From Planoprotostelium fungivorum (taxonomy: Eukaryota > Evosea > Variosea > Cavosteliida > Cavosteliaceae): a DNA stretch of 64,000 nt. The notes beneath the pieces are model-generated. The model searched no databases, was not told where the DNA came from, and saw only the letters and a list, made by a program, of their open reading frames with translations. Made by a program: the position numbers and the translations under genes. Location: positions 1 through 64,000 of the forward strand of contig MDYQ01000099.1 in the NCBI GenBank assembly GCA_003024175.1. Direction: 5' to 3'. This document shows positions 19,558-61,900 of this stretch, one piece after another; the stretch's first letter is position 1, and each line of letters begins with the position of its first letter.

Positions 19558-22500
19558 ATGCGATCAGCCGCTGCTCTCGTGCTGCTGTCCGCCTTATCTC
19601 TGGCCATCGCCCAGAGCTGCTCTCTGTCTCCCTCTCACGCCTCCGGTGCTCCTCACTGGTTGGGAGATGCTTCTCTCCGCAACGGAAGGTCACCCTACAA
19701 TGGAGACGGTTCATACTCTGTCTTCAGAAACGTCCTCGATTTTGGCGCTCGAGGTAATGGTGCTTCCGATGATACGGCCGCCATTACCAATGCCTTGAAC
19801 GCTGGTAATCGCTGCGTCTCCGGATGCAACTCAACTACCGTCTACCCCGCTCTTGTCTATTTCCCCTCGGGTACCTACTTGGTCTCTTCTCCCCTCAGAA
19901 TGTGAGTTGTCCGTCACTCCTCTGTTTTGATAGAGTTCCAGACCGTATGATACTCAGATGGTTGGAGATGCAAACAGCCCACCCGTCTTCAAGTTGGCCT
20001 CCAACTTCCCTCAAGGATGGTTCTTAGACGCCGATCCTTATGGAAACGATGGGTGTGTATCTCCATGTGAGACTCAAATCGTCGCTGATCTATCGCTGCA
20101 GAAACGGATGGTTCACGGGACCCAACAACTTTTACAGACAGGTGGCGACAGTCACCTCATACCATTCCCTAACCTCTTTCAGATCCGAAACTTTGTCATC
20201 GATTACACCAGCGTCCCCCCCACGACCAACGTGGCCGGTGTTCACTGGAGAGTCGCTCAGGTCATTCCATCTCTTCCATCATCACGTCTGACTCTCACAG
20301 GCCACCTCCCTCACCAACATCCAATTCATCATGAGCAGCGCAGGTAACACCCAACACCAAGGTGTATGGATGGAGGACGGCTCCGGTGGCTTCTTCTCCG
20401 ACCTCGTCTTCTCTGGTGGAAATTTCGGTGAACATCCTCCCGTCTCGTTGTAGTCTGACATCCCGCAGGTATCTGGGTGGGTAACCAACAGTTCACCTCT
20501 AGAAATCTGACCTTCAGTGGATGCAAGACTGCCATCTTCATGAGTGAGTCTATCTCCTCACACCCTCCTCACCTCTACAGACTGGAACTGGGCATGGACT
20601 TTCAAGTCCGTCAACATCGATAAGTGCCAGATCGGTATCGATCTCTCTTCCTCTCAGCAGAACCAGACGGTGGGATCTCTCGCCCTCTTGGACGTGTCCA
20701 TCAGCAACACACCCGTGGCCATCAAGACCTCCATGACCTCAGCCACATGGCCACCCACCGATGGAACTCTCATCGTGGACAACCTCGTCTTGAACAACGT
20801 CTCCACCTCCGTTCTGGGTGCCAACTCTCCTCTCGTGGAGGTGAGATCCATCTACAACGAGCCAGGGGACTGAGGGTAGTAGGGAGGTACCATGACCATT
20901 GGATCTTGGGGACAGGGTCACATCTACGATAACGCCAGATCTGGATCTTTCTTCGCCGGAAAATTGAACGCACCCCCCAAGAACAGCATCCTCTTGGATT
21001 CCACCACCGGAAGATTCTTCGAGAGACCCAGACCTCAATACTCCGAGTACTCCATCAATGACGTCATCAACGTCAAGAACGAGGGTGAGAAATTCCATTG
21101 ATATTTCGATCTGACGGATGACAGGTGCCATGGGTGACGGAAACACAGACGATACCGCAGCCCTGACGGCAACTCTCAAGAGATGGGCCGGATGCAAGAT
21201 CATCTACTTCCCCTACGGTGATGCATATGAAGGGAAGCCATTCTGATGAGTTGCACAGGAGTCTACTCCATTCGAAGCACTCTGTACGTACCTCCCGGAT
21301 CTCGCATCGTCGGACAGGCCTGGTCTCAGATCAGAGCCGACGGAAGCTTCTTCTCCGACATGAACAACCCCAAGCCCGCCGTACAGGTCAGATGAACATT
21401 CATCTCCCTCCATCTGAAACGGATGCAGGTTGGACTACCCGGTCAGACTGGAGTGGCCGAGATCAGCGACATGATCTTCACCACAGGTGGCAACACTGCA
21501 GGAGCTATCGTAGTCGAGTGGAACATCCGAGGAGACAGTCAGGGATCCGCTGGAATGTGGGACTGCCATTTCCGCATCGGTGGTGCCATCGGTACCAACA
21601 TGGGCCTCAGGGAGTGCCCCGCAGGCTCTTCTCCCTCCTCTCAGTGCATGGGAGCTCACACCCTCCTTCACATGACTTCCACTTCTTCTGCTTACCTCGA
21701 GAACGTGTGGGCTTGGACGGCCGATCACGATCTGGAGATCGGAGATGGACAGTTCATGATCAGGTGAAGAGATGAGAGAGAAAGGATTGAATTGAGACGA
21801 TGCAGTGTCTACAGTGGAAGAGGAATGTTGATCGAGTCACAAGGACCCGTCTGGTTGTATGGTACTGCTTCGGAGCACAACGTTCTGTACCAGTACTCCC
21901 TCATGAACGCCAACAACGTTCTCATGGCCATGATCCAGACTGAGTCTCCTTACTACCAAGGTATTCATCTCACTCCTCTCTTTCACTCACACAAACAGGA
22001 ACACCTCAGGCTCCCGCTCCCTTCTTCAGTGACAGCAGATACAGCGACCCCGTCTTCAACTGCAACGGTAACTACAGATGTGGTTTCGCTTGGGCCGTCA
22101 ACATCGTCAACTCGTACGGAGTGTACCTCTACGGAGCAGGTGACGTTCCTCCTCTCTCTCACCCTCACACCTCTCAGGTCTCTACAGCTGGTACAGCAAC
22201 TACGATCAGACTTGCCTCAACACGAACAACTGCCAGCAGGACATGATCTCCGTCACGAACAACAACAACGGTAACCAGCCCGGTATCTACCTCTACAACG
22301 TCAACACCATCGCTTCGGTCAACATGGTCACCTCTAATGGAAGAGCCACCATCTTCCAGAGAGACCATCAAGCCAACGCGGTCGGTGCCGGTGGTGGTTT
22401 CTGCTCCACCATCTTGGCTGATCTCACCAACGCTGGTTCTGCCATCAACCCCATCACCAACCCTCTCCCCACCTTCGTTCCCACTGTCCCTGTGCCCACC

Positions 22501-23216: not shown

Positions 23217-25893
23217 TTATAGGATCTCGGTGATTATACCGGCGGCAAACGTCTTTCCATTCTCTCGGAGTGTGAACCTTCCCAACTGCTTGTACTCACT
23301 GTACAACTCCACGCAGATCTTCTTCTGCACCGACTTGCTCAGTTGGATCTCCACCACGGCCGTCGCGTGGTCACCCAGCACCCTGTTCCCATCAGTTCTC
23401 CACTCCCTCTCCATCTCTCACCTCGGATTCTTCTTCTTCACCTCCCCGGTCGTCTTGTCTAATAGGGCGATCAGCTTAGTGATGACGATGGCTTCGTTCA
23501 AGGAGGAATAATGCATCTCGGCCATCTGTCCGTTGAGAATGGGCCGTTGTGGGACGAAGGTGAGGATCTGGGCTTTAAATCGATTGGTGGTACCGATTGG
23601 CTTCTCTGGATCGGACAGTACGTTTCCGCTGCTGTCGGACTGTCAGGGGGGAGATTTCATGAAGATTTCGTTACCTGACGAGTTGAGCGTCGACGCCGGA
23701 TATGCTGATGTCGACGTAATCTCCCGCCGTGGCGTACTCCACGGCTTCTCCGTGGATTCTCACTCGACTGACCGTACAAACTTCGTTCAGTGGACTGATT
23801 AACAGCTGGATGAAATCAATCATCTTTCCATGAAAATGTATCATTGATGTAGATCATTTAATCATTTGATGATGTGTGATGAGATAGATGACGAGTGATG
23901 GGATGTGAGAGAAATTACCTTATCGTCTTTCGAGACCACACCGGCTTCGATCCTTCCTGCGACAGTGAGACCACCCACTTGAGCACGGTACAGATCGGAG
24001 ATGCACAGTCTGAACGGCTTGTTGATATCCCTCACGGCTGGGTCGAAGCTGTCGATCTTCTCCATCAGTGTGGGTCCGTTGTACCATCTATCATCATCAT
24101 CGTCATCATCATCGTCATCATCATCGATTGAGATCTGATGATGAGAAGACTCACGCATTCAGCACATCCGATTTCCTCTGCACAATGTTCTCACCAGCGA
24201 GACCGGACAGCGGAAGGAAAGAGAAGCTCTTATCCCTGAATCCAGAAGCCTTGAGGAAGAGAGACATCTTCCCCACGATGTCATCGTATCGACTCTGTGA
24301 CCACTCTGCCATGTCCAACTTGTTGACCACCACAGCCAGCTGTGAGATACCCAGACTGCGAGCGAGGAGTGCGTGCTCTTTCGTCTGGCCGTCGGCCTCG
24401 AAACCTTTCTCGAAGGCATCGGGGGCTGCATCTACAACGAGGATTCCAACGTCAGCCTGTCACGGTCACTCTCTACAATGCGTCGTTGGAATGCACAGGA
24501 GAAGACGAAATGTGAGACGAATGTCGTTTGAATTAATAAAGATGAAATAGAAGAGGATGAAATACCTGAGCGGCACCAGAGATCATATTGGGAACAAAGT
24601 CTCTGTGTCCCGGAGCATCCAACAGAGTGATCCTGCGATGCTCCGTCTCGAAATTCGTAATTCCCACATCCATCGTCACTCCTCGATTCCTACTCCATCA
24701 GCTCTCTCCTTCTCTCTCCTCTCACCTCTCTTCTTCGCTCTCGTCCAACACCCAGGCGAAAGAGAAGGAGCTCTTACCGATGTTCTTCGACTCCTTCTCG
24801 TACTTGTGCATCGTCTTCTGGTTGACGACACCGTTGAGGTAGAGCAGATGTCCCATGATGGTCGATTTACCCGCGTCGACGTGTCCGATGACCACCAAGT
24901 TCAAGTGTTCCTTCTTACTCGAACCACTGATCATCTTCTCGATCTCTTTCCTTCGATTGGCGCTCATCTGCTTGTGCTGCTTGCTGTTGGTTCTTTGAGT
25001 CGCTGTGATGATGTCGACATTGTGAATCACCTGGCGGGAGATGAAGTGGTCGAGCTGGTGGTGGACGATGCGTTCGAGCCCACTTCCTCTCTCTTGATGG
25101 CGTCGAGTATGGTCTTGGGGCGCTCTTCCGACAGGTTTAAGTTTTCCATCTTGTCTTCCACGGGGATGGTGGTGGATGATGCACCGAGGGTGATGATGGC
25201 TGGTTTCTTCGGTGTCGAGTTGGTCTTCTCTTCTCTCTTGGGGTCTTGGAGGGTCACCTTCTTGGCTTCTTGCTCTCCCTTCTTTCCTTCTGTTGATGTC
25301 ATGACGGAGATGAAGATGAGGATCTTGACACTCACTCGTCTCGATTTCCATGTCGAACTGTTCGTCGGTGGCTGCAAGTGGTGAGAGAGTGGTGAGAGTG
25401 ATAGCCTATCGTTCACCTCGATTGGCACTGTTTTGTTTGTCGTACAAAAAGTTGATGGCGTTGTTGACGTTGTAGTTGTTGACTCTGAGGGCCTGCTTGA
25501 CGTCCTCTACTTCGAAATATTCTCCTTCTTCTCCCAACTCATCGTAGAGTTGGTCCAGATACGCACTGATGAATTCTGATTCCCATCATTATCACGAGGC
25601 GAGAGAGATGATGACACTCACCAGCGTCTTCTTCTCCATCTTCTTGAAGGAAAGTGTCTAAAGTCGGATTGTCTTTACTTCTATCATACAAGTATTGAGA
25701 TGCTACAACGGAAGTCAGAATAAATGAGGCTGATGGGAGAGAACCCCACCTCCAGGGGAGGCAGAGGCAGGTGAGAATCCATATTCGTCTTCATAATAAT
25801 CATCTGTGTGTTGTCAGTAGGGTCTCGTATGGTGATAGATATACCATCGTAATCAGCATAGCTGCTGTTTCTAATATTTCTGTGTCGAGACAT
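23217..25893 (-). CDS. HBS1L: HBS1-like translational GTPase (ribosome rescue)
   Basis: Partner of Dom34/Pelota in no-go and non-stop decay, releasing stalled ribosomes. The N-terminus [17 protein letters not shown] leads to an HBS1_N-type helical domain ([23 protein letters not shown] near 25450-25520) and a charged linker. The EF1A-like GTPase has G1 [14 protein letters not shown]2 RGVTMDVG, G3 DAPGHRDF and G4 VNKLDM. Domains II and III end with [28 protein letters not shown] in place of the eEF1A-type RGITID, plus the HBS1_N domain, separates it from eEF1A and eRF3. About 690 residues. The intron near 24086-24130 is a CATCATCGT microsatellite. Confidence 0.93.
24089..24130. repeat. Microsatellite in an HBS1 intron
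   Basis: (CATCATCATCGT)n-type run of about 40 bp inside an intron. Confidence 0.8.
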
Positions 25894-26280: not shown

Positions 26281-29200
26281 ATGGCTCATACCTGTATGTT
26301 ATCTTCTTGTCTCGGTTCAATCATTGGATGATCACACCAAAGCAATTCTTCTCAAATTCTATGAATCTACGGGAGGCTCAAGTGGGATAGAAGTCTATTT
26401 TACATTCCACTCATAAACATGAAGATTGGAGGAATAACTGGAATGCAAATCAGGACCCCTGCGGCTGGTATGGAGTCGTCTGTGACGTCAACAGCACGAC
26501 TCTCTTGTCTTTAAACTTGTCAAATAATCTCCTTCACGGTGATATCCATCAGATGTGATCTTCATCTCAGGCTCACACAAAGAAGGAAGTTACATCGGAC
26601 AATTATCGCAACTTTCCACCTTGACATCAGTCGATTTGAGTTTCAATCATCTGAAGGAAGCACCACTGCCAGATCTTACCTCTTTAACCAATCTGGTCTC
26701 TCTGAACTTGTCATCCAGTTTCAACCTACAAACTCTCCCACTCACACTACCAACATCCATCGAGCTCCTCGATGTTTCCGACTGTGGTCTCATTCAGGTC
26801 TACTTGTCACCTTACAAGAGCCTCACATCATTACATCTCGATCACAACTCTCTCCTCCAGATGAGCGACCTGGAGGGCGTCGAGCGACTGCCCCACCTGA
26901 GAGTGTTAGACATCTCATCCAATGCAATGAGAGGAAGTGTCCATCTCAAACTGTTTCGCCTGGACGCCCTCTATTTAGACGAGAACCAGCTGGTGTTAGA
27001 GATTCCACCATTTTGTAATCTGTCCAGGCTCAGCTTCAGGAGAAACGGAAGAGCAGGTGAGCCGATGGCCATCACCTCGCGTGACGTCATCGCAGATCAA
27101 TCTACACCGCGTGTGGATTATTGTGAGAGGCTGGTGTGGTTAGATCTGAGCTCGAATCTGTATTCCACCATTCCTCTTCTCAATGGAACGAAAAACCTAC
27201 AGGTGTGACGATGATCATGATCGTGATCATGCTGACGTCTCAGTATCTGAATCTGTCGTCCAATACGATGAGAGGAGATGTCAAAGATGTCTTCCATTGT
27301 TCATCACTGATCTCAATCGACATCCAAGGTGTGAGTAGATAAAAATGTAGAACTGAAGGAAGAAGGAAATCAACTGAGTGGATCACTACCTGACATCACA
27401 AAGATGTACCAATTATCACACTTGGACGTCAAGAGAAATCACTTTACGGGTGACCTTCTTCTCTCTATTCTCTCTCAACAGAATAGAAGTGTCTCATTGT
27501 AGTGCAGGTGTCATCGATGACATGTTTCACGATAAGGCAGAGTTGAATTACGTCGATCTGTCGTTCAATCACCTGGAAGGATCCTTACCTCCCTCTCTCT
27601 TTCACCTCACTTCCCTTCGTTATCTCTCTCTCAACAGAAACAAGTGGGGTCCCTATTCATCACCCATCTGACAGCACCAGACTCCGTGGTGAAATCTCGA
27701 ACGTGACGCATTTGCTGTCACTGAAGTATTTGGACGTCTCGTTCAACAATTTTTCCGGTTCCGTGAGATTTCCACCGAATCTCGTGACGTTGTACGCCCA
27801 GTACAATCTCCTCGAGGGACAATTGATCATGATGGGTGATCGCTATGACATCATCAACGTCAAATTCAATCGATTCTCTGGGAAATTTCCATCACTGTCC
27901 CACAGGATGTCATTCTTTGATGCCACGTCCAATCAGGTGAGATGTGAGAGAGAGGAGAGCTGAGAGAAACAGTTCAACGGAAGCATCACGAGCCGCATCG
28001 CGGTAGAGAGGATTTTTCTCGATGACAACCAATTGACGGGAGATCTACCCACTATGACGGAAGATGTCGTGTGGTTTTCCGCGGATAACAATGATTTCCG
28101 TGGAACGTTGGATCCATTGCGTACCATATTGCGGCGTTGTGGGTACATTTCCATCAGGAACAACAGCCTGCGGGGTGATTTAGAGGTGAGTTCTCTTCGA
28201 AATCTCACCGACTCATTGGTGTCTCAGATCTTCATGTTACCTTCCAGACAATTGGTGTATCTCGGTGAGAATTCTCAGTACAGATTCAGATCTTGTTTAG
28301 ATACAGATCTGACGTATTATAATAGATCTATCGGACAATTATCTGAGTGGTCCCGTGTTCGGTGACGAGGGGCGAAATCTGGACTGGTACATCAGGTGAT
28401 CCATCTACAACGAGACACGTCTCGATCTCGTCGACATCTGGACTGAACGAGATCAGTCCCGATCGCATGGATAATCTAGTTCACATCGATCTCTCCCACA
28501 ACGAATTCAAATGTCAGATCTTCAACTATCCCGTTTATCGTCACTCTCTCCCACCTCGTCTCATCGATATCATCTTATCTAACAATCGATTCTATGGTAG
28601 ACCCTTCTTGGGTGATTCCATGCAGACTCTCTTCATTGAAACGATCATGTTGGATAACAACAACATATCGGGTGATGCCATCGATACCATGTCACTCGAA
28701 TCGATACGGGTGAGTCGAGCCTTTTTTTTCGTTTGATTCGTTCTCACTTTTCCTCTCAGACGTTGTCTCTGGCCAATAATTCCATAGAAGGAGAGATCAC
28801 CTCTTACATCGGTTATGCCGACCAGCTGACTTATCTCGATCTCAGTGGAAATCGATTGTACGGCAGATTGCCCGATAGTACACTGCAAGGCATGACTTCC
28901 CTGCAGGTGATGTCACGTCGGTTTCATCTCTGAAGGACGACAGAAATTGGATCTCAGTAGAAATCGATTGGAATGTTACGATCTGAAATGGTTGAACGAT
29001 CTCATCCATCTCGAGTATCTAGATCTGTCCCAGAACAAGATCCACGCCAAGTTTCCGTACGTGGGGGACATGAAGAACTTGAAGTTCGTCGACATGTCTC
29101 ACAATCGACTGTACGATGACATCGATCCTTCCTTCTTTCGTCTCGTTTATCTGGACTCCGTATCACTCAGGTGAATTCCTCAAATGTCTCCCTATTGAAT

Positions 29201-35162: not shown

Positions 35163-38100
35163 ATGTTCGTGGAGGAAGGAGCCATAGGTGAATATGGAGA
35201 AGAGTTCCAAGCGGAACCTGAGGTCACACCCGTCTTCTCTCTGAGAGCGGTCGAGTTCAATCCTGGAGGAAAGATCAAACATATGGTCGTCTGCTCGGAC
35301 ATCCTCGTTATGGCACTCGGTAACAATCAAATCACACGTTTGGACCTCGGTCAACCTAGTAAGATCCAGGACATCAGCATCTCGAAGGGCGACGATCAGA
35401 TACACAAGCTGTTCATGGACCCCTCTGGTCACCATTTGATCATTTCTATGACCAACGAAGACAATTACTACATCTTCCTCAACTGGCAGAAACCTAAACT
35501 TCTCTCCAAGTTAAGAGGGATCAAGATCGAGTCCGTCGCATGGAACAAGAACGGAGATGCCACCAGCACGAAACAGATCCTCATCGGGACATCGAAAGGC
35601 AAGATATACGAGACCGTCATCGAATCGAACGAAAAGGCATTTATGGAGAGACTCGTCAGCGGCGGTGGAAAAGATCAGACCTTCCAGCAAGTCTACACCC
35701 TCAACGAGAACATGCCCATCACCGGTCTACGATTCGAAGCATTTCCAACGGAGAACAGCAAGTACTTTGTCATGGCAGCGACACCGACACGTGTCTATCA
35801 GTTCATCGGAGGTCCCACTTTCGAGCAGCTCTTTGCAAAGTATGAGACGAATGCGGGTTTCTTGGAATTACCTGGAGACCTCGATCATTCGGACTTGGCC
35901 TTCTTCTCAAAGTACAGCCAGGGTCTACCTCAATCTTTCGCTTGGTTGACCGGACCAGGTGTGTCCCATCCTCCTTTCATCGTCTCATCACCGTCACCTC
36001 CACATCACAACATCACACAAGATACGTCATCTTCTTCGCATCAAGACTCATCATCCCATCATCATCTAATGTGTGCGTCAAGGTGTCTACTACGGAGACC
36101 TCATCTTCGGCTCTCAAAACACCGGAGAGTCCGTCATGGTCGATCACTCCCTCGTCCCTTATCCCTCCTTCCCCGGCTCCGAAATGGCCACCACCGTTGT
36201 AGACGGCCGAAACCGAATGCTGTCCATACCCCTCTCCCTCATTCTCACCCAGTACCATTTCGTCCTCCTCTATTACGATCGCATCCAAGCCATATCGAGT
36301 ATCACGCGCGAAGTCGTCTGGGAGGAACAGTTTGGTAAGAGGATCAGGAACATCAGGGGAATGGCTTACGATCAGAATGGGAAGGCCATGAGAACAGCCT
36401 GGTTGTACACCGAGACGCAAGTGTACGAGATATACATCGACAGTGAAGACAGAAACGTGTGGGAGATGTACTTGTCGAGAAATCTTTTCGATGCGGCTTA
36501 TCAACACTGTAAGAATGACAGACAGATGGATAAGGTGAGACCGATCGATATCGAGAGAGTGAAGGAGGACAGGTCTTGACGAGCCAGGCCGAGCACAACT
36601 TTAAGAACAAGGAGTACAAGGTGGCAGCAGCTTGTTACGGAAAGACAAAGAAGAGCTTCGAAGAGATTGCACTCAAGTTTTACTCGATCAACGAACAATC
36701 TGCCCTGAGAAATTATCTTTCACACAAATTGAAGTCCATCAAGCAGAACGAGGTGAGAGGATAGAGTAACGAGATCTGACTCGTTGTAGAACGCCACGCA
36801 GTGTACTCTCATCGCGACGTGGTTGACTGAGATTTATCTGGACAAGTTGAACGAGTGCAGCAGCAACAACAGTGGTCCACAGCAGCAGAAGGAGATCATG
36901 CAAAACCAAGAGGTCATGGAAGAAGAATTCGAGAAATTCCTGCAAGAAAACGAGAAATACCTCGATCAATCTACAACGTACAATCTCATCGCCAGTCACG
37001 GAAGAATCAAGGAATTATTGTTCTACGCCACTCTGAAGAAGGATCACGAGAGGGTCATCCAGTACCACATCCAAAACGGTATTTCATCGAGTTTTCCACC
37101 ACATTTCACCGACGATTCTACAGGCGACTACAAGAAGGCCCTGGGAGTATTGCAGGAAGGAGGTACACCCAAAATGTACTACGAGTTCAGCCCCATCTTC
37201 ATGCATCACATTCCTTACTACACGGTCAATCTGTGGATCAAAAACCACCAACAGTTAGAACCGAGGAAACTCCTACCCTCCATCATGAGATACAACCACG
37301 CCAGCAACATCGAGGACGGTCAGGTACATCTCCACGATATTCCACAGAAATTTCGCGGGAAACTCAATTCGTACAGGTCAACCAGGCGATCCGATATCTC
37401 GAATTCTGCGTCAAGAGATGTCAGAATGAAGACATGGCCATCCACGATTACCTCTTGTCCCTCTACGTCCAACAGAGATCCGAAAAGGAGCTCATCGCTT
37501 TCATCGAGGTGACCGTCTACAACCCGCCAATGCTGACTCGAGCAGCAACGAGACAAGTTTTTCGACATCAAGAATGCACTTCGATTGTGCCTGAAAGAAA
37601 ACAAGACGAAACCCTGTGTGTTGCTGTACAGTGCCATGGGTCAATACGAAGAGGCAGTCGACCTCGCCCTCGAAGTGGATCTGAATCTTGCGAAAGAGAA
37701 TGCGAACAAGCCGGAGGAAGACGAAGGATTGAGGAAGAAACTGTGGCTCAAGATCGCGAGGTTCGTTGTAGAGCAGAAGAAGGATATCCAAGGGGCGATG
37801 GAGCTGCTGAACGAGTGTGATCTACTCAAGATCGAAGACATTCTTCCTTTCTTCCCAGATTTCACTCGTATCGATCAATTCAAGGTCAGAAATTTCTCTC
37901 CATTTTCTTCGAATTTTCTAGGAATCTTCTCCTGACCGGTTCTGTAGAACGAGATCTGTAGTTCGCTGGAAGATTACAATCGACACATTGATCAACTCAA
38001 GACTGAGATGGAGGAGGCCACACGAAGTGCAGATCTCATTCGAAAAGACATCAAAGACATTCGAAACAAGTGAATGCCATTCATCACTATCTATATTAGA

Positions 38101-38662
38101 TTCATCACTATCTATATCAGCCTCCACAATGAATGTCATTGACCTCGTACAGGTACGGATTCATTGGTGTCAGCGAGAACTGCAGCCTGTGCAAGACACC
38201 TGCACTGGCCAGAGAGTTTTATCTCTTTCCTTGCGCTCACGCTTTCCACGAAGATTGTCTGAAGACAAAGGTGATGTGATCATGATGAAGACAGTGTCAT
38301 CATCACGTGATCATGTGTTGATGATGGAGACAGATGATGAAGGGAATCGGAAGTGTAGATATAAAGAGACTGACGAAGCTGACGGAAGAGTTGGGCCATC
38401 TACAACGAGACGAGTTCAAGGAGGTGACGGACTACAACCCGACAGAAAACAGGGAGGACAGAGAGAATTCTGCCATGTACTCAAAGGTGAAGGAGAGAAG
38501 AGAGGAAGGACTGAAGGAGAGATGTAGATGGAGAAGATCAAAGAGGAGATCGACAACTTGGTGGCTGCAGAGTGCCCCTTCTGTGGACAGATGATGATCC
38601 AGTCGATCACGGAGCCGTTCGTCACTGCCAACGATTTGGAGGCTTTGACTTGGCAGATATAA
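35163..38662 (+). CDS. VPS18: VPS18/Pep3 core subunit of HOPS/CORVET
   Basis: Tethering-complex subunit for endosome and lysosome fusion. The N-terminal beta-propeller starts MFVEEGAIGEYGEEF and includes FSLRAVEFNPGGKIKHMVVC and GTSKGKIYETVIE. The alpha-solenoid has clathrin-repeat features (LYSAMGQYEEAVDLALEVDL, ILPFFPDFTRIDQFK). The C-terminal RING-H2 is CSLCKTPALAREFYLFPC.HAFHEDC ... AAECPFCGQMMI, ending EALTWQI. About 1,000 residues. The segment near 38290-38540, between the two RING halves, is longer than usual and includes one exact copy of the recurrent 13-base motif read as HLQRDE. A near copy lies upstream at 35073. Confidence 0.95.
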
Positions 38663-38991: not shown

Positions 38992-39052
38992 TATCTTTTT
39001 TTCACCCCCAAAATTCGAAATTAACTCCTTTCTTTTCCCTAGATCTTGGAGG

Positions 39053-43419: not shown

Positions 43420-43438
43420 AACAAGAGATTCTTTTTAT

Positions 43439-46295
43439 TTATTCTAAAGCTCCTTTCAATGCAACGATCGCTGGAATCAATGCCTCGCGGCTCTCGACAA
43501 AGAGGAGACGACACAATCGATTCAAGAGGTCATCCTCTTCGCTCTCCTCTTCTTCTTCTCTTTGGAGTTGGTGGAGTAAGCTGTCGTGGGTCAGAAGAGG
43601 TTCGTGACATTGGAATACCTCTTGCAGAGGGAAGGGAGTCGAACGTCTTCGACTTGGAAGAGGTGACACAGTTCGATGATGATCTGGTGATGGATGAGAT
43701 CTTCTTCTCTCCTCTCTAAGGGGTGGGATGTCTCTGGACTCTGTCTTCTTGTGTCTAAGAGTCTCTCGATTTCATTCAGACAGCTGTTGAAGGAGCTGTT
43801 CTCGTCTGTTGGGGGTGAGATTTGAAATAAAATGAAATAAAACCTTTTCCCAAGGCAGAGCGGAGAGCCTTCAGTGCATTCTTCGCTTCCGTCCACGATC
43901 GAAAGACCGAACTTAATCCCGGTAAAATCCTATCGATTTCATCAATCGATTCATCTACAACGAGCAGCCTCACCCTTCCACATTCGGAATTCCGAATAAT
44001 TCTTGGACGTGGCGAACCACAACGCGATACATCTCGGCCGGTCCGACATCTTTCATCTGTTGACATTTCAACTCACATTACGTTCTAATGTCCTTCACCT
44101 CTTCTGCTCTCAGCAACATCTCTCCTGACGCAAGGTGTCTGTCTTCTAATTCCACGAGATCTCGAATCTACAACGAGTCAATCTATAGAGGAGGGAGAGG
44201 GTCACCTGCACTCCCATACTCTCTTTAGAATCCTTCTTCCTCTTCTTCAATTCGTGCATGACGTCATCATGTTCCGACTGTAGAGAATAAATGTTCCGTT
44301 CGATATCTCCCCTCACTTTTAAAGATTTCATTTGGGACATGCTGTGAGTCCAACTCCACAGAGTCCGAATTACATCCGGAAGTGCCATCTGTGGTAACAG
44401 ATCGATCGCATCGTACTGTACGATCTATGGATGTCAGTGTCAGTGTCAGATAGACATCTGTGACACCTCTTGCACTTGAGAGAAGAAGGACTCCAACTCG
44501 ATGAATCTCTTTCCCCCGTGGATCAGCTGATCGATTCGGCTGCACAGGACAGTTACGTCGGAGATTCCGAGTTGTACGCACAGGTCCTCCACAATTCCCT
44601 GTCGTAGTGAGATTTCGATGAGATTTCTGCGAGATTTCAACACCTTCCAGACCAGATCGGGTACGGTGTTGGATTTTTGTCTGATCTTGTGTAACAATTT
44701 GTCGTGTTGAATCTTGTCTCTCGTTGTTTGTATCGTCCTCTCTTCTCCTCTTCCATTGATCAACTGTTTCATCGTTAATGTCGACAGCATTTGTGAACGA
44801 GATAACCTTCTTCAATGCCTCTTCTGCTTGTCGACGTTTTTCTTGTTCTTGACGCCACTGAGACAGTGTGGGCAGAGATCTGATCTCTATCTTTAAATTT
44901 TCGTTCTCTTCGATCAACAGTTGGTTCTTTTTCTTACACTCTTCCGTCTGTTTTTCCAAGGCCTACGGAGATATTTGTCATCGATGGGACACATATAAAT
45001 GTGACTCACTGCCACTCTTCCCTTATTCGCCGTATCTTCTTTGTCTTTTGGTGGATTCTTATCGTGTGGGTTGACGAACAACTGTCCGTTTAAATTGGCC
45101 ACTTCCCTCCTGCAGAGGAGGTTAAGACATCACATCGACCGACAAGTGTTACCTTAAGAAAGACAGATCGCTCTCCATCACCCTCCTGTTCTTCTCGTAC
45201 ATAGAGATTATCCTGAGAGTTCTGTTGTCTTGTACGGACTTGTTACCCGTTGTAGATGGCGGTCGCTGCGCTATGTCCATGAAGACCTGCTTCTCGTCAC
45301 GATTTGCATTCCAATCTCCTCACTTGACGATCTTCCGTTGTCTTCTTTTCTGCCTGCTTCACCATGTCGTGCAGACGATCCCTGTAAGAGTCTGCTTCCT
45401 TCTCTTTCGTCTGATATTTATGTGTCCACTGCGTCATCTTGTGTTTCAGCGTGTGATTCACAAACTCCAAGTGGGATATCTTCTCCTTCAAATTCTGTTC
45501 GGAAATGCTTTGAGATTCCTGATCTCGTTCAGATGATCGTGAGATGTGAGGTGTGAGATGATGACGATCACCTTCAGTTGTTGGATTCGATCTTCGGCGT
45601 TCTCGAGAGATCTGCTCACATCTCTGTGCATCGTCTCCACGTTTTCGATTCTGTACGAGTCAGTTCGTGCTGCACATCAGATCGATCATCTCACCGAGTG
45701 TTCAGCAGTTCGATCTGTACATTCTGCGTGTTCACTTTTTCTTTCCATTCTTTACACTCGTTGTCCATCTTCTCATAAGATTCGAGTATTCGACTGATAG
45801 CTTGGACGTAGATATCTGTTGTCTTCAGCTATGCATCTTCACAATCACCTCACCTTGGTTCATGATCTTCTCTGGAAGAGGTTCGAATCCATTTCGTCTT
45901 AATAATTCGTTGGCGTGTTCGTGTCGAAAGTGATCCTTCGTTGTGTATGGTGTGGGTATCACAGACCGATTGGTAATGTCTGAGAGGGGCAGACGTGTAG
46001 AGGACCTTGTTGATCGGTTTCGATCGGACGAGAACGAAGCGTTTTCATCGTTGGTCAGATTCAATTTTCTGGCCAGATTGCCTCTTCTAGCTTCTATTGC
46101 CTCTATCTCGTTCTCGATCTCTCTTATCGATCTTCTGAATGGCTTCTGCGAAGACACTTTGAGGAATTCTGAGATAGGTCGATTGGGCAATGGACTCCCA
46201 TAACAGATGGTGCTGGCATCACCATTGTGAAACGAGATCTCCTCTGCAATATTCACGTTTTCCAGATCTAATGTTATATCATTCGGTGTGTCCAT
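43439..46295 (-). CDS. CEP70-like centrosomal coiled-coil protein
   Basis: Homologue of CEP70, a gamma-tubulin-associated centrosome/basal-body protein. After a Ser-rich N-terminus, the motif HANELLRRNGFEPLPEKI matches the conserved ..LLMMHGLKPL start of CEP70. Long coiled coils follow. The segment LIEENENLKIEIRSLPTLSQ ... RRQAEEALKK matches the LETRPTQ..L..Y..QVKKLEKALKK region. A helical repeat region then leads to a C-terminus SREALIPAIVALKGALE, like the DDLDAIVPAVKKLK end. About 800 residues and many introns. A 44-nt intron at about 43931-43974 contains the recurrent motif. The presence of CEP70 suggests a flagellate stage (inference). Confidence 0.75.
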
Positions 46296-47921: not shown

Positions 47922-50900
47922 TCAAGACGTAAATGTGGAGAACTCCAATTGTTGCTCTGCATTCTTCTCACAACTACCGCTATAGAAGGCCAAGTCCTTT
48001 CTAGTCACCATCCCCACTGGTTGATTCTTCTCATTCACTGCTCTCATGTCATTCTTCTGATGATGGAACACGTGAGGACTCACCAACGGGCAGATGTCTG
48101 AGACCCATGGAACGAAATAGACGATAGGCTCTAGACAAGTTCGTGTTGGGTGTCACCGTGTGTGGATTCGGATTCACATCTGTCCTCCATCAGCTCTACA
48201 TCATGGTGTCTGTCTCCGTCGGGTGACTCACACGGCAAGAGGTTGAGCTTCATGTCTAATTCACTCTCGTCTACTTGTATCTCGTGCAGCTCCGGAAACC
48301 TCGGAAAGTGATACCTGAAGCAGTCCAGGGCCACCTCCGGTACATCTCCATCCTCCATCTACAACGAGTTACTCCCGATCTCCCACCGCCTCTCACCCTC
48401 CCGTAACCCCCCTCGTACAGTATCACGGTCAACTGTGACCTCAATATCTGCCCTCTCAGTCTACCCCCTTCGTCTACAACGGGGAAACCGTTGTGCTCGC
48501 ATTCCTGCAGCGTACGTACAACCTTCTCCACGGTGGGGTGACACGTCAGATTGACAAGTTCTCCCGACATGACATCCGACACACTTTTTCCCGCCATCCA
48601 CTGCGGTGGGTCCCACTGTAACACCGGAAACCTCACCACTCGAAATACCTTTTACGTCAATCTACAACGCGTCGAAGTCACACTCACCGTGTTGTAGATG
48701 CCGTCATCGAATAGATCGCCGATCCATTTTGCCACGATGACAGTGAACATGATGGGGGGTGCGTAAGAGATGTCGTTCGTCGTCTCGATCAATATGGCCG
48801 TCAGCGATCTACAACCGGTCAGCCGGAACATTCTAATTCTCCGGAGGGACTCACATGGGGGTCCGGAACATTCCGGAGAGCATGGCGGCGCATCCTAAGA
48901 GGGAGAATGTTCCGGTGTCGGCATTGATGATCTCCATGTTGGCCTGGAGAATCTGCCCAGCGAGACGGCCGAATGTGGCGCCAAAGAGGAGGGAGGGAAT
49001 GAAGGTACCGGATGGTACTGTGATACCGCTCGTCAGGCAGGCCAAGGGGAGGAAGGTGAAGAGGAAGACGAGGAGGCTGGGGGAGGGTCAGGATTGGCGG
49101 GTTGTAGATCGATGAACCTGATGTTGGAGTAATCTCGAGGAGCGTGGAGGATCTCTGCGACGGCCGTCGTTTCGGGAGTGAAGTACAGTGTGGCCAACTC
49201 GTTGAATTTCCCCTGAAATCTCGTCGGTATTTCATTTTGATGTATACCATCACCTCTGGACAGTAGAAACCATAATGCGTCCAGTTCTCTTCGTTGTCAT
49301 GGATGTCTTTACACTGAGTCAGCTTGGCCGAGATGGTGAAGCAGATGGTGGTGGTCAGAATCGAAACGAAGACGGCTTCGATGATTCTCCACGATCTCTT
49401 CGTTCGGTAAGTGTACCTCAACTTGGCCAATCTCATGTTCACGTGAATGAAAAAGGATCCGAATAATCCTCCTGTGAGACGTGTGACTCGTTGTAGATGG
49501 ATGAAAAGGTACGAGAGATTTCGAAGAAAGATCACCCATCATTCCGATGAGAGCGAAGAAGGGTAAGTGGTAGATGTTGTACTCTGCTTTTTCGATGAAT
49601 TTTCCAAAGTTGACGAGACCTGGGGATGTCACGGCTCGTTGTAGATGGATGACCCACCCGGTTGAGTGAACGAACCCCAACCGTCACCGTTGATCCCCGA
49701 GAGGAGGAAACTCATAGTGAAGGCACAGAGCACAGCTGTGAAGAAGATCCTCCAGATCAATGTCTGCTTCCAGAAGGAGATACTGTCTTCTAATGCAAAC
49801 AACAATCCCCCTGCAGATCTTGAGAATTTTTTTCCACGATTCATACTGTGATGATGATGATCATAATCACGGTGCATTGATGATCATCAGATGATGATGC
49901 GATGATGTCAATGGTGATGACGATCAGTGATCATATCGTTACGTACCAAGCGGAGCTCCATAAGCAGCAGCGATACCCGCAGAGACACCACCAGCCACAA
50001 AGTCTCTCTTCTCTCTATCGTTTCGAAATGACCTCCTCGTGTTATCCCCCTCCCTTCCGAGAAATTTCACCTGAACAATCCCAGAAATTTCCTGTTCTTC
50101 CCTATGGTGAGAATCTGTCCTTGAGAGATACCAGCCGCGATGGTTGCTCCGGCCATGATCAGAGTGGCTGGTTGTAGTTGCCGATAATGCTCGTCACTCA
50201 TGAATTTTACCTGCTTTTCCCAGTATGAGGCCTCCAGATTGAGCCAAGATGAGTCCTAAGACTTTGACGATGATGGTCTTCATGCGAACAATCTTTGGAA
50301 TCCGAATTCCATTCAAGAAGCATTTGAGTTGGGGAACTCCACTTCCTCCCGCAGCTGGCTGCAAGGATGTCACATGATGATGTTCGACTCTTTGATCACC
50401 TCGATGAACTGCACGAGGCAGGACGAGAGTAGAACAGCACCCGCGTTGATGGACAATAGAACGAGATAAGGTATCCAGAAGCATGAACCGCAGTTGTTGA
50501 TGACTTGAATCGGAGTGAGACCGATCGACACACCGTGTATAATCACCTTCTTTGAGGAGGAGGAATTTGACGCCGTATAATTTAGAAGTGATATAAGTCA
50601 TGCCGAAGGCGAGAATACCTGTGAGGACTCCTATGAAACCAAAGATGATCCATTTCCACGCGGCAGCAGCAGACATTCCTCTCTGATCACGTTCAATGTT
50701 GGTACATCAGTGACGAGAAGATGGATACCTTTCCATTGGCGATGATTTCACGAAGATGAAGAGGGCTCTCTATCTCATCGTAATCCAGACTCTATTCGAT
50801 CACGTCAGAAATGCTGTCGGTGGAAAAAATGACACGACCTCTACGTTGGTGATGGGTTTCTCAATCAATCCCGAAGATTGATTCGTGATATTTGAGATCC

Positions 50901-50937: not shown

Positions 50938-51155
50938 GTTTGATATCGTCACCCGTTTGCATGCCAGCCGGTGTGTCGTTCATCAGAAAAGATTGTCTCA
51001 ATGTAGAAGCACAAAAAGGTCGACGAACGGTGCTTTCTTATCTCCTTTGATCCTTTAAACAGATTGCTTGTATTGGGTCTAAACAGCTGGTCTTGAACTC
51101 TCATCTTCCGAGAGCTGATGAACATCTCAATTGATACGCTCGAGCACCGTTTCTT

Positions 51156-52503: not shown

Positions 52504-53750
52504 GTCCGTCGAATGCGTGTGAAATGGGTTCTGATGTTGGCGTTGGATATCTCTGAGAAAATGCGATTTTCAATGAATTTCATTTTGCTGTTCCCTTGGT
52601 GTCATGAAAGCATGAAGAAGAAAGCACAAAGAAGTGGAAAGACCAATATCTTCATTGTTAATCCTTCACAATTGATATTTCTCAAAAACTACACTTGTGA
52701 CATCCATATCTGTATTAGCGTATAAAGGCCTTTATCTCTGATGGTAATGGTCAGACGGTGGTTTAGTCTACATTTCTGCGTAGTTCTTACGTACATCTAC
52801 CCATGGAACTGAGGAAACTGACCTGGCACCCTCCATAAATGAGATATGACCCCGGAGATTCTCACGTACGCTATTTTTTTAGCGTACATTGTCACTTTTC
52901 TCTGTTATGAAAGTCCGGACGAAAAATCTGAAACCATTTTTGGGTAGCCCATGTGTTTTTCTACCTGGGTGAAGTGTCATCAATGACCTGGTACCCTCCC
53001 TAAGAGGTGATAAGTGCCCACGTGCGTTATTTTTTTTAACGCACGTCATGTGACCCCTACTTTTCTGACCTGTTTCTGACTCAGCAAACTGCGCTGATTC
53101 CAACGGTATATGTCACAGTTCACAAAAATGATGCATATGGTTATGTGCGTTAAAAAAATTAACGCACGCGGGCCTTTATCTCTGATGGTAACGGTTGGAC
53201 GGTGGCTTAGTCTACATTTCCTTGTAATTCTTACGTACCTCACCCCATGGAAATGAGGAAACTGACCTGGCACCCTCCCTAAATGAGATATGACCCCGGA
53301 GATTCTCACCTATGCTATTTTCTTAGCGTACATTGTCACTTTTCTCTGTTATGAAAGTCCGGACGAAAAATCTGAAACCATTTTTGGGTAGCCCATGTGT
53401 TTTTGTACCTGAGTAAAGTGTCATCAATGTCCTGACACCCTCCCCAAGTTGTGATAAGTGCCCATGTGCGTTAATTTTTTTAACGCACGTCATACTTTCT
53501 GACCTGATTCTGAGTCTCTGAGATGCGCTGATTCCAATGGTATGTCACACGGGTCACAAAAACGATGCCCAACTTGAGCAAAGTCCATATTACACTACCA
53601 TTCAGTGTACGTACACTATTATTTAGCGTAATTCTCACTTTACTCTGATGCAAATGTCCGGACGAAAAAATGGATTGCACCAGCGTGTAGGCCATGTGTC
53701 TCTCTACCTTGTCAATGTGTCATTTGTGAGCTGGTACCCTCCCTAAACTA

Positions 53751-53751
53751 N
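53751..53751. other. Assembly gap (single N) in the satellite
   Basis: A single N breaks the repeat phase, as do those at 54903 and 55504. These probably mark joins of unknown size, so the true array length is not known. Confidence 0.85.
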
Positions 53752-54240
53752 TTCACAAAAATGATGCATATGGTTATGTGCGTTAAAAAAATTAACGCAC
53801 GCGGGCCTTTATCTCTGATGGTAACGGTTGGACGGTGGTTTAGTCTACATTTCCTTGTAATTCTTACGTACCTCACCCCATGGAAATGAGGAAACTGACC
53901 TGGCACCCTCCCTAAATGAGATATGACCCCGGAGATTCTCACCTATGCTATTTTCTTAGCGTACATTGTCACTTTTCTCTGTTATGAAAGTCCAGACGAA
54001 AAATTTGAAACCATTTTTGGGTAGCCCATGTGTTTTTCTACCTGGGTAAAGTGTCATCAATGTCCTGACGCCCTCCCCAAGTTGTGATAAGTACCCATGT
54101 GCGTTAATTTTTTTAACGCACGTCATACTTTCTGACCTGATTCTGAGTCTCTGAGATGCGCTGATTCCAATGGTATGTCACATGGGTCACAAAAACGATG
54201 CCCGACTTGAGCAAAGTCCATATTACGCTAACATTTAGTG

Positions 54241-54440
54241 GACATTGTTGTGCCCAACATTTGACATCATTGACTAATTGGAAAACTCGGAGAAAAGTCA
54301 GTGAAAACTCAGCAACCAAGAAACACATTCAATGCATGTTCATTGAAAAGGAACACCTTGGCTTTCTTTGCTTTGAAATCATTCTTTATAAACAGAGACT
54401 CATTGAACTGTTTGGTTCCTATGTGGTGACCATACACCAC
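54241..54440 (-). mobile_element. Truncated TIR element inserted in the satellite
   Basis: About 200 bp interrupts a satellite unit between ..ATTTAGTG and TACATACAC... It is the reverse complement of 56785-56985 with a few changes, and ends in TGACCATACACCAC, the terminal repeat seen at 57296-57309. The other terminal repeat is missing. Confidence 0.8.
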
Positions 54441-56784
54441 ATACATACACTATTATTTAGTGTAATTCTCACTTTACTCTGATGCAAATGTCCGGACGAA
54501 AAAATGGATTGCACCAGCGTGTAGGCCATGTGTCTCTCTACCTTATCAATGTGTCATTTGTGAGCTGGTACCCTCCCTAAACTATGACATGACCTCACGT
54601 GCCTTATTTCCAAATAACGCACGCCATGTGACCACTACTTTTCTGACCTGTTTCTGACTCAGTAAACTGCGCTGATTCCAATGGTATATGTCACAGTTCA
54701 CAAAAATGATGCATATGGTTATGTGCGTTAAAAAAATTAACGCACGCGGGCCTTTATCTCTGATGGTAACGGTTGGACGGTGGCTTAGTCTACATTTCCT
54801 TGTAATTCTTACGTACCTCACCCCATGGAAATGAGGAAACTGACCTGGCACCCTCCCTAAATGAGATATGACCCCGGAGATTCTCACCTATGCTATTTTC
54901 TTNAGTGTCATCAATGTCCTGACGCCCTCCCCAACTTGTGATAAGTGCCCATGTGCGTTAATTTTTTTAACGCACGTCATACTTTCTGACCTGATTCTGA
55001 GTCTCTGAGATGCGCTGATTCCAATGGTATGTCACATGGGTCACAAAAACGATGCCCGACTTGAGCAAAGTCCATATTACGCTAACATTTAGTGTACATA
55101 CACTATTATTTAGTGTAATTCTCACTTTACTCTGATGCAAATGTCCGGACGAAAAAATGGATTGCACCAGCGTGTAGGCCATGTGTCTCTCTACCTTGTC
55201 AATGTGTCATTGTGAGCTGGTACCCTCCCTAAACTATGACATGACCTCACGTGCCTTATTTCCAAATAACGCACGCCATGTGACCACTACTTTTCTGACC
55301 TGTTTCTGACTCAGTAAACTGCGCTGATTCCAATGGTATATGTGCCGATTCACAAAAATGATGCATATGGTTATGTGCGTTAAAAAAATTAACGCACGCG
55401 GGCCTTTATCTCTGATGGTAACGGTTGGACGGTGGCTTAGTCTACATTTCCTTGTAATTCTTACGTACCTCACCCCATGGAAATGAGGAAACTGACCTGG
55501 CACNACGCCATGTGACCACTACTTTTCTGACCTGTTTCTGACTCAGTAAACTGCGCTGATTCCAATGGTATATGTCACAGTTCACAAAAATGATGCATAT
55601 GGTTATGTGCGTTAAAAAAGTTAACGCACGCGGGCCTTTATCTCTGATGGTAACGGTTGGACGGTGGCTTAGTCTACATTTCCTTGTAATTCTTACGTAC
55701 CTCACCCCATGGAAATGAGGAAACTGACCTGGCACCCTCCCTAAATGAGATATGACCCCGGAGATTCTCACCTATGCTATTTTCTTAGCGTACATTGTCA
55801 CTTTTCTCTGTTATGAAAGTCCGGACGAAAAATCTGAAACCATTTTTGGGTAGCCCATGTGTTTTTCTACCTGGGTAGAGTGTCATCAATGTCCTGACGC
55901 CCTCCCCAACTTGTGATAAGTGCCCATGTGCGTTAATTTTTTTAACGCACGTCATACTTTCTGACCTGATTCTGAGTCTCTGAGATGCGCTGATTCCAAT
56001 GGTATGTCACACGGGTCACAAAAACGATGCCCAACTTGAGCAAAGTCCATATTACGCTAACATTTAGTGTACATACACTATTATTTAGTGTAATTCTCAC
56101 TTTACTCTGCTATGTTAGTCCGGACGAAAAAACTGAATACACCACCGTGTAGCCCAGGTAATTCTACACCTGGGTAAACTGTCATCAATGACCTGGCACC
56201 CTCCCTAAATGAGATAAGTGCCCACGTGCGCTATTTTGAAATAACGCACGCCGCATGGCCACTTATTTTCTGACCTGTTTCTGACTCAGCAAACTGCGCT
56301 GATTCCAACGGTATATGTGCCGGTTCACAAAAACTACGCCAGACTTGAACAAAGTTCATATTACCATACCATTCAGTGTACATACACTATTATTTAGCGT
56401 AATTCTCACTTTACTCTGATGCAAATGTCCAGACAAAACAATGGATTGCACCAGCGTGTAAGCCATGTGTCTTTCTACCTTGTTAATGTGCCATTGTGAG
56501 CTGGTACCCTCCCTAAACTATGACATGACCTCACGTGCCTCATTTCCAAATGACGCACGCCATGTGACCACTACTTTTCTGACCTGTTTCTGACTCAGTA
56601 AACTGCGCTGATTCCATTGGTATATGTCACGGTTCACAAAAATGATGCATATAGTTATGTGCATTAAAAAATTAACGCACGCAGGCCTTTATCTCTGATG
56701 GTAACAGTTGGACTGTGGCTTAGTCTACATTTCCTTATAATTCTTATGTACCTCACCCCATGGAAATGAGGAAACTGACCTGGT

Positions 56785-57309: not shown

Positions 57310-57317
57310 AAATAATA

Positions 57318-58922: not shown

Positions 58923-61900
58923 TTAAAACTCAGGGGGAGGAGGTGGGAGAGGTGTATCAGACATGTCGTGTCCATGGCTCTCGTAGGAGAGGGGGACAGG
59001 GGTGTCGTTCCATTCATCGCTCTGTGTCTCCTTTGGTGCAACCCCCATGGACCACGTGGACTCACCCCTGCTCAATACAGGCGTGGGCGTGTGTGACCCT
59101 ACATCCCTCAGACGTGTTTCTTTCATTCTAACCCACCGTGAGATGCAGTGGTGGAGTAGTCGTCTTGAGTGACGTGACCGGAGGACCAAGTCGAGTGAGT
59201 TGTCTCCTGAATCGTTGAATGATGTGTGGTCTCTTGAACGGACGAATGATGAGAGGGTGCCATGGGTGTCCACGTGTGGTGGCTTGGATTGGGTACATAG
59301 TTGGTGGACTCAGGCTCGTACGGCTGTCGAGTCCTTCAGCTTTCATCAACCCATCCGCTCACCTGTTCTTCAAATTCACTGAGAGTCACGGAGGTGGTGA
59401 TGTAGTTGCCTCCCACGGTGGATGGAACTTGAGGTAAGACGGACGTGTGTTCAGGTGTGACGTATCGATGGCTTCGAATGGCCTTGTACTCGTCGTACTG
59501 CTGTGTGTACGTGATCACGTTGGCGTCCAATCTGGATCTCATCTGCATGATCAACTCCAGGATGTGGCCTCTCCTCGATACCTCTGCCCTCGTTCAGCGA
59601 TTGAAGACGGTCGATTCAAACGAGAGAGAGAGGGAGATGGTGGACTCACCCTCTGCACCGAGTATCTTCTCCGTGTCGATGGGGAGTGGCATCTTCAAGA
59701 GAGAAGTGCTGCGTATGACACCGTTCTTGAGGGCAGAGAATCCCACGGGACCGTACTTGTTATCGTCCACGTTGAATTCGTAGAGTTGGGTGTTGCTTCG
59801 AATGAACATGGCAACGTGCATGGCCCCTCGATCTCCCAATTGGTTGTCTGTTCCGTGTCAATCTTCTCATCCGGGAAATAAGTCTTCTCGTTTAGGAGAG
59901 AGAGGATGTGAATACACACGAGAGACGTTGAGCGAGCGTAGGGACAAGTGGAGGGCGTTGATGTGTGCCAATACGGGAAGAATATTTCCCTTTCCCCATC
60001 CTCGGCTCAGATCGAGATCCTACTCTCATCAGTAACCGTCTCTCTTTCGATTTGTTGATGTCGTTCAGGTGATCCTGAGACACACACCTCGAGTGAACGA
60101 CAGTGATCCAATAGATTCTTCAGGGGGATGGAGAGGTGGGGCTCTCTGCTCGTGTTCTTGCTGGTCACGTTGCTGAGGTACAATCCTCTCAGTTCTGTTC
60201 TGACATCAACATACAAATATCGAATGAGAAGATGTGAGGGAGAGAAAGAGGGAGAAGATCACCTTGGAGAGTGACGAGACTGGCGATGAGCTCCGTGATG
60301 ACTTCGTCCTTCATCTTGATGTCACTGAGGGAGATGCTCGTGAACTTGGGAGATGTACATCTGCGCAACGAAGCGGCAAAGTAACGAATCCCTCGACTTC
60401 CCAGCTCGTTTCCTGAGAGGTCCAACTGTCTTCATCAGGCTCCGTCTCATGATCATTACAGATGGAGATGATGCGATCGAGTGATCACCTCCACACGATT
60501 GAGATGAGGGTTACCAACGAGTGCCTCCTGTATGGGCTCCAGGGAGTCGTGGTTGAGAGAGCATCTGCTGAGGACGATGGAAGAGAGTGCGTAGATCTTC
60601 TCGCAGATGTAGGCGATCTGCAGACAAGATACACCCGTGTCCACGTGAATGCCCGACAGATCTAATCGAGTGAGGTGATCCTGGTGGCGGATCGAAGGGG
60701 AGGCAGACAAGAGGAGTCCACTCCTGACGTCGCGTGAGGTTCATCCGAAAGAAAAATTCACCTCGCCACGTTGAAGGTGCGGAGTCTTCCCTCTCTGCGT
60801 AATTGGATCATCCAGTTCTCCAGGGCAACCGTTCCTTCTCTGTCCATGCTGTTTCCCTGTTCGACTCAGTCTCTCTTCTCGTGAATGGAACGAGACACGG
60901 TGGTGTGTGGATGGATGTGGATGTCGTGGTAGAATGAATGGTGACTCACAGACAGATCGAGATGTTCCAAGGAGAGAGACACGGCCCAATTGTGGGCGAG
61001 ACCGGCAAAGAGAGCTGCGACACCTCTGGGAGCGATGGAGCAGTTGGGCAACTCGAGGTGAGTGAGTGAGTGATCGAAGGTGGAGAGGGCCATGGCCAGA
61101 GAGGCCACCGCTCTGCTGGTGAAGGTGCTGTCGGAGATTCTGATCATCGAGATCTGTTCGTGTCATCGAGAGGAGAGAAGAGAGATCACACGTTATTCTT
61201 TGTGTTGGCACCCAGAGATGAGCCGAGTTCGCACCACAGTCTCTCGTCGCCTGCCACTTCTTCCAGGTCGATACGGGTCAGGCAGGTGTTGTTCCTGTTC
61301 TCCGTCAGTTCTTCATCTACAACGAGCCGGGGTGAGGTGTGGAGAGAGGAAGTACCTGAGGACGTCGGCCATGAGGAAGACGAGTTCCTTCCTGGGGTAT
61401 CTGTGTAGTTTGATGCTCTTGAAGTAGGTATCAAAGCGTAGAGCAGCCATGACGGGCCACAAGTTGAGAGCGGCCTCTGATCTGGGATCGATGCCCGGTA
61501 CTTGAGTCAGGTCCATGTCTCTGCTCTCTGTCAGTCTCTTCTTCTCTCGTCTGATTCTCTATCATCGTGTGTGATCGTGTCACCTGTCGCTGTAGTAATA
61601 GAGGGCCTCTAGATAGTACAGGAATTCTGGGTGGGGAGGGAACATGTAATAATTGCACCACGCCCGGTAGATCTTCAGGAAGGCTTGGCTGGGCTCGATG
61701 ACTGTTAACCATTCAGTTCAACGGTTCACGTGATGTTCTATAAAAAGTAATGAGTTGGGTCTTTCTGTTTCTCTCGTTCACCTGGTGGTTCATTGGTGGC
61801 CAGATCACTGAAGACGTTAATCACGAGAAAGATGCAGATGGAGATATGGAGCGACGTACATTCCACCCATGTGGATGCCACAGGCAAATTCGGGAGGGAA

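Follow-up and report, generated by a model that had tools for sequence, protein, structure and literature searches.

We analysed a window of 64,000 nucleotides from Planoprotostelium fungivorum (contig MDYQ01000099.1, positions 1 to 64,000 of the forward strand; "the window" is this whole stretch) for a 13-base word, CATCTACAACGAG, that recurs in introns in both orientations. The 13-mer appears to be part of a recognition site of 16-17 bp, roughly TCCATCTACAACGAGYCA, in which a half-site, TCTACAAC, is joined to its own mirror image, to GAGYCA or to CCGCC(A). The explanation that we favour, at about even odds, is that these sites are bound by a sequence-specific DNA-binding protein that pairs with itself or with either of two partners. 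The sites are found chiefly in internal introns of certain genes, which often carry several each; the putative dimer would exert its effect within the gene, through chromatin state, elongation or co-transcriptional processing, and not at the promoter. The counts given here show how abundant the sites are, their preference for introns in the sample, their use in both orientations, the three right halves, the fit to the splice signals and the clustering by gene; the binding of a protein to DNA, its dimeric nature, a branch-point role of the motif (from position and sequence) and an effect on the gene are inferred.

The genome searched comprised 36.86 Mb in 471 contigs and includes the window. 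A first-pass annotation, made from the letters of the window, had listed eight exact copies of the 13-mer and claimed an excess over chance; all eight coordinates proved correct, one further exact copy, at 24429, had been overlooked (9 exact matches in total), and the window holds 21 sites at up to 2 mismatches compared with a mean of 1.53 and a maximum of 5 in 100 shuffled windows, which bears out the excess. The genome-wide count proposed there also revealed enrichment, with 1278 exact matches (652+626 by strand) vs 3 (2+1) for the reversed word, and 4794 vs 105 sites when up to 1 mismatch was allowed. For analyses requiring gene models we used a sample of 283 kb, which combines the window with 200 kb of contig C12 and a further 19 kb or so included for carrying the motif. 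For every word length between 8 and 13, the core CTACAACG and its extensions ranked first in over-representation in this sample, and core sites numbered 159 vs 18 expected. The sample is richer in the motif than the genome, with 24 exact copies in 264 kb (window and C12) vs one per 29 kb genome-wide.

Gene models came from a simple gene finder that was self-trained on the sample, without transcript evidence, and that missed some genes and introns. It yielded 92 genes and 606 introns with a length mode of 36-44 nt (234/606), and the predicted splice sites were mostly AG|GTGAG donors and CAG acceptors. The predicted proteins are sensible: a predicted Elongator subunit 1 aligns to solved structures (E 4e-148), and five predicted proteins include matches to the Pfam families chloride channel, RCC1/ankyrin/BTB, NDT80/S74, AAA and pectate-lyase-like. 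Motif acceptors fall at sensible protein junctions, namely ...LALSEQQ^MISC... and ...DYWIIR^NSWGTSWG..., contexts that we take to be papain signatures, and the Elongator junction at residue 181, which has a motif acceptor, lies inside an ungapped stretch of the alignment.

Counting the 32 exact copies of the sample by location, as the first-pass annotation had suggested for introns, exons and intergenic DNA, gave 18 in introns, 9 in exons and 5 outside predicted genes, with introns making up 14% of the bases; when the motif-selected stretches were left aside, 12 of 24 were intronic. The 18 intronic copies are split evenly, 9 per orientation. Full composite sites are intronic in 34 of 42 cases, and the core was found in 65 of 608 predicted introns. 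Five exact copies of the window lie in predicted introns (20849, 28402, 49487, 49635 and 61314), and two more, at 43952 and 48356, are probably intronic, since on the minus strand a GGTGAG donor precedes each at intron distance; this makes five, and probably seven, of the 9 intronic, in line with the earlier figure of seven out of eight. Of the copies that fall elsewhere, some probably mark missed introns, among them these two and one at C12 65914, as each sits behind a donor. The alternative offered in the first pass, a conserved intronic signal, thus gains support from the enrichment in introns, from the invariant core and from a placement compatible with splicing.

Around the copies, conservation covers CATCTACAACGAG(N)CA with a weak TC or TT preceding it, and is not clear beyond. 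Among the one-mismatch copies, 30 of 31 differ at the four outer positions and 1 of 31 in the nine core positions; this is not the pattern expected of decaying repeats, in which core and edges should erode at the same rate. To the right of the half-site TCTACAAC stands its mirror image, GAGYCA or CCGCC: the palindrome CTACAACGTTGTAG occurs at 750 places genome-wide (control 0) and TCTACAACCCGCC, the half-site with CCGCC, at 433 (control 0). In the sample the half-site is partnered by itself 7 times, by GAGYCA 27 times and by CCGCCA 8 times, and neither partner half was seen facing its own mirror image or the other partner (0 cases each, the chance expectation also being about 0). The site thus has palindromic or composite halves, is used in either orientation and has graded edges, the features looked for in the site of a dimeric DNA-binding protein. 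Such a site would best explain the occurrence in both directions, the palindrome, the constant half with exchangeable partners, the invariant core and the lack of wider homology. Other palindromic words are frequent in the sample, namely TGACGTCA (28/51 intronic), TCACGTGA (20/34) and GTACGTAC (4/12). The first two lie mostly in introns and are commoner in the introns of motif-rich genes, at a nominal p of about 0.001-0.003 with many words compared. All three words look like sites of well known factors.

Since many introns measure only about 40 nt, the site is fitted around the splice signals. In gene orientation it stands directly past the donor; in the other orientation it lies upstream of the branch point or is merged with the 3' splice site, the TGAC of the site then probably serving as branch point and its TAG as acceptor. 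In the gene's own orientation, GGTGAG followed by CTACAACGAG occurs 283 times genome-wide vs 74 for the mirrored order, motif then donor. Gap statistics refer to the matches listed (for the reverse orientation the first 100 of 506, a few of which share a donor or motif): the gap is 2-9 nt in 72 of the first 100 donor-then-motif matches vs 9 of 74 mirrored ones. On the opposite strand, 25 of 44 core sites of the sample end exactly at the acceptor, and the remaining 19 all lie at least 14 nt from it. Genome-wide, GGTGAG followed by CTCGTTGTAG within 30 nt was found 506 times, with a bimodal gap in the matches listed (50 at 0-15 nt and 49 at 22-30 nt, one match at 18 nt being dropped). Among these, the branch-point position of TGNCTCGTTGTAG is an A in 41 of 49 long-gap vs 3 of 50 short-gap matches (p=3.5e-16). 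The split persists in predicted introns when the finder receives no branch-point input (17/23 vs 2/21 with AG alone, 16/23 vs 4/21 with a short acceptor matrix). Since the A is coupled to the long gap, one base largely decides whether the TAG of the motif is used as acceptor, and position and sequence suggest that this A is the branch point.

Use of the motif's TAG end as acceptor (CTCGTTGTAG|) had been proposed for four copies of the window; it is predicted at 36780 and likely at 48356, the finder places the copy at 40036 in mid-intron (it could be an acceptor), and the copy at 44165 lies outside predicted genes. The motif does not behave as a spliceosomal 3' splice-site or branch-point consensus, which would be strand-specific, at a fixed position and present in most introns.

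The sites are unevenly distributed among genes. Marked introns number 9/23, 7/17, 5/18, 5/10 and 5/12 in some C12 genes beside 0/30, 0/15 and 0/12 in others; none of 2000 shuffles was as uneven on C12 (window p=0.047), a contrast that false gene models lacking the motif would inflate. The motif content of neighbouring genes was uncorrelated, so we saw no regional effect at this level. Motif-rich genes carry 47 sites in 7971 intron bases vs 1 in 4000 upstream bases (10 genes with a predicted start), the intron figure being inflated by the choice of these genes by their introns; upstream of genes with at least 4 introns, 22000 bases hold 7 sites. First introns are marked in 2 of 58 cases vs 77 of 504 for later introns (p=0.009), a distribution unlike that of intron-mediated enhancement, which relies on promoter-proximal introns. 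The preference for internal introns of a gene subset suggests an action on the gene body. As a proxy for expression, GC at third codon positions (GC3) did not distinguish 14 motif-rich genes from 27 motif-free ones (p=0.61), though the motif-rich set had the lower intron GC (44.1% vs 46.8%, p=0.009). A separate class of intron words, of the CATCATCA type, was present in 2 of 65 motif introns vs 66 of 541 others (p=0.02), and the longer CATCACATCATC has gene orientation in 17 of 19 intronic cases.

We compared paralogs in a papain-type family. In the C12 copy, 7 of 17 introns carry the core or the half-site; the core is present in 1 of 13 introns of the copy on contig C94 (dS 0.38 and dN/dS 0.16 relative to the C12 copy) and in 0 of 7 of the copy on contig C173. 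Of the five core-bearing C12 introns, four are predicted in C94, and the fifth, at 187558, is not predicted there and is predicted in C173; three motif-bearing C12 intron positions (two core, one CCGCC variant) are present in C173 without the motif. The introns of this family therefore appear not to depend on the motif, and the contrast between the copies indicates that motif copies turn over quickly. C12/C94 is the one unselected paralog comparison; a second pair was picked since both copies carry the site, and its retention there at 76% overall identity proves little.

Several points weigh against a DNA-bound dimer. A transcription factor would not usually have so few sites upstream of genes, and the concentration of opposite-strand core sites exactly at acceptors could signal a role at the RNA level. 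In the C94 papain-type copy the core is broken at both exonic sites and at 4 of 5 intronic ones, and the identity of motif columns in introns (47/56) is not clearly better than that of other intron columns (415/544, gaps excluded). Where the motif falls in a predicted exon or between genes, an intron has probably been missed in some cases. More tentatively still, we suggest as a possibility that the sites form a gene-body code, in which a dimeric factor with interchangeable partners would mark a subset of genes through orientation-free site arrays in internal introns, rarely in promoters, the sites being built into the splice signals of minimal introns with one base (A or not) deciding the use of the 3' splice site.

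The strongest rival is a splicing signal read in RNA, in which TGACTCGTTGTAG would be an extended cassette of branch point and acceptor and the donor-proximal forward copies a second splicing element. It would account for the sites that end at the acceptor, for the coupling to the branch-point A, for the peak of forward copies near the donor and for the scarcity upstream of genes, and we nevertheless judge it unlikely: an RNA-binding factor is not expected to read both orientations alike, yet intronic copies are balanced and the perfect palindrome is abundant, and 543 of 608 predicted introns, as well as whole genes, lack the core. Nor do forward and reverse copies within a gene depart from chance as pairing between its introns might require (orientation balance p=0.37, alternation p=0.24, palindromes excluded; a count with palindromes included gave p=0.06). 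Hairpin stability relative to shuffles in introns of 35-60 nt did not clearly differ between motif introns (0.54 +/- 0.33 kcal/mol better, 47 introns) and others (0.18 +/- 0.11, 348 introns). A different DNA-level process with no regulatory role, such as a recombination or replication signal, a modification site or a mutational drive by which introns acquire the motif, fits the orientation-free use, sharp core and palindromic form, and also the quick turnover between papain-type copies; it does not by itself explain clustering by gene without correlation among neighbours, scarcity upstream and in first introns, or three partner halves, and seems improbable to us. We give next to no credence to a coding peptide, a vector or adaptor sequence or an assembly artefact. 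Exonic copies such as that at 24429, whose peptide we take to be an EF-1alpha/HBS1-type GTPase stretch, could hint at such a cause, but exonic copies occupy different reading frames, on which ground a coding peptide was rejected; the copy at C12 65914 probably lies in a missed intron, host genes belong to unrelated families with unrelated flanks, and three related composites would all need to be artefacts. A viral source was also discarded, as two 16-mers matched 13 and 44 viral stretches at one place each, which we read as chance.

The first-pass annotation had first offered the terminal repeat of a tiny intron-generating element as an explanation. Among introners there are families with terminal inverted repeats, and in some of these one splice site is supplied by the target (PMC9860276); the present case resembles introners in that a short intronic sequence recurs in many genes. 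The motif would then be the terminal inverted repeat of a mobile intron of about 40 nt, which would suit its two orientations near intron ends. Some introns do hold a forward and a reverse copy (C12 171814, C12 184476 and, with the CCGCC variant, C16:44332); a G-rich minority of the listed motif acceptor introns are alike beyond the motif (11 middle pairs score at least 8 vs 2 in shuffles); and two near-identical introns occur in unrelated genes (window 49077 and L007 726, 97% over 33 of about 41 nt, TCTACAACCCGCCA variant included). However, exact opposed CTACAACGAG...CTCGTTGTAG pairs within 30 nt occur at only 7 places genome-wide, a count confined to GAG-type pairs, and the distance from motif to donor is variable. 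The best window score for a target-site duplication was 2.7 in 65 motif introns and 2.2 in 25 acceptor introns, not above the 2.9 of 65 random others or the 3.7 of all 606. Aligning the host introns, as had been proposed, showed motif intron bodies to be no more alike than others, with a like excess of similar pairs in both (6 vs 1.4 shuffled for 34 motif bodies, 98 vs 32 for 120 non-motif bodies), and the core is absent from six G-rich introns in the sample, of which one has a near copy. With paralogs sharing intron positions without the motif, and mismatches sparing the core, we rejected an introner as the main explanation and regard it as very unlikely. Compared with introners, what is shared here is a site of 16-17 bp, with paired ends rare and neither a duplication nor a common body, and paralogs lacking the motif keep the same intron positions. 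A repeated intron word with inverted copies is not by itself evidence for introners.

Literature searches by motif strings and for over-represented intron motifs in amoebozoans returned no paper on the subject among those listed, as judged by title, and further searches yielded only the works cited in this text. The nearest known behaviours, neither of them the same thing, are those of two systems. Introns of C. elegans rich in periodic An/Tn clusters (PATCs) are reported to improve expression when in the coding region and to be apparently dispensable in the promoter and 3'-UTR (PMC7725773); they too carry a DNA-level signal, but one of periodic A/T runs, whereas the present word is discrete and dimer-like and lies in introns of about 40 nt. 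The YY1 sites in the human UBC intron, a case of intron-mediated enhancement with a DNA-binding factor, fail upstream of the promoter and affect splicing (PMC3680475), and are likewise sequence-specific sites within an intron, binding being putative in our case; they belong to one 5'-UTR intron, unlike the present sites, which are depleted in first introns and mark many internal ones. Over-represented motifs in Theileria (PMC2612703) are also short words in a compact protist genome, and were likewise read as factor-binding sites; they are intergenic, two of them close to transcription starts, unlike the intronic word described here, which is scarce upstream.

Minimal introns are usually thought to hold little besides splice signals. 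If the binding of a dimer is true, introns of about 40 nt would house DNA sites that are specific to certain genes and coincide in part with the branch point and acceptor, introns and not promoters would hold the most over-represented word found here, and there would be one concrete reason for a compact genome to keep many tiny introns. The copies in the window are collected below.

Table. Copies of the motif and its variants in the window, by position
Feature	Position	Strand	Context
Exact motif	20849..20861	+	Gene strand, 8 nt past donor, 42-nt predicted intron
Exact motif	24429..24441	+	Predicted exon of minus-strand gene; encodes ILVVDA on gene strand; probably a coding coincidence
Exact motif	28402..28414	+	Gene strand, 6 nt past donor, 61-nt predicted intron
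Near copy, 2 mismatches to the 13-mer	36780..36792	-	Plus strand TGACTCGTTGTAG is the 3' end of predicted intron 36753-36789
Variant TCTACAACCCGCC (half-site with CCGCC partner)	37516..37528	+	Inside 37-nt predicted intron
Exact motif	38397..38409	+	Inside predicted exon
Near copy	40036		Placed mid-intron by the finder; could be acceptor
Exact motif	43952..43964	+	Minus strand GGTGAGGCTGCTCGTTGTAG, donor 4 nt ahead of CTCGTTGTAG core; no predicted gene
One-mismatch copy	44165..44177	+	Outside predicted genes
One-mismatch copy	45246..45258	-	Outside predicted genes
Exact motif	48356..48368	+	Acceptor of probable 38-nt minus-strand intron 48359-48396 (GTGAG...TAACTCGTTGTAG|ATG); no predicted gene
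Variant TCTACAACCCGCC	49096..49108	-	41-nt predicted intron of chloride-channel gene
Exact motif	49487..49499	-	Chloride-channel gene strand, 64-nt predicted intron
Exact motif	49635..49647	-	Chloride-channel gene strand, 38-nt predicted intron
Exact motif	61314..61326	+	Opposite to gene; mid-intron, 19 nt from acceptor, 61-nt predicted intron

Apart from these copies, a search of the window against Rfam at gathering thresholds returned two tRNAs only, both tRNA-Ser(gct) of equal score, which are inverted and about 2.2 kb apart (38910-38992 on the plus strand and 41182-41264 on the minus strand). When positions 35100-54900 were used as a query, a repetitive region at 52714-54900 gave at least 73 matches elsewhere in the genome, and a unit of about 197 bp at about 54246-54441 has, among the copies listed, roughly two dozen of full length at 96-99% identity. 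The stretch 53036-56680 contains the palindromic words GTGCGTTAA (9 matches) and TTAACGCAC (11 matches), along with tandem units of 232 and 309 bp. On contig C65, the motif contexts at 1493 and 61947, and at 2680 and 60754, are identical and in inverted order, which suggests a large inverted duplication or an assembly palindrome.

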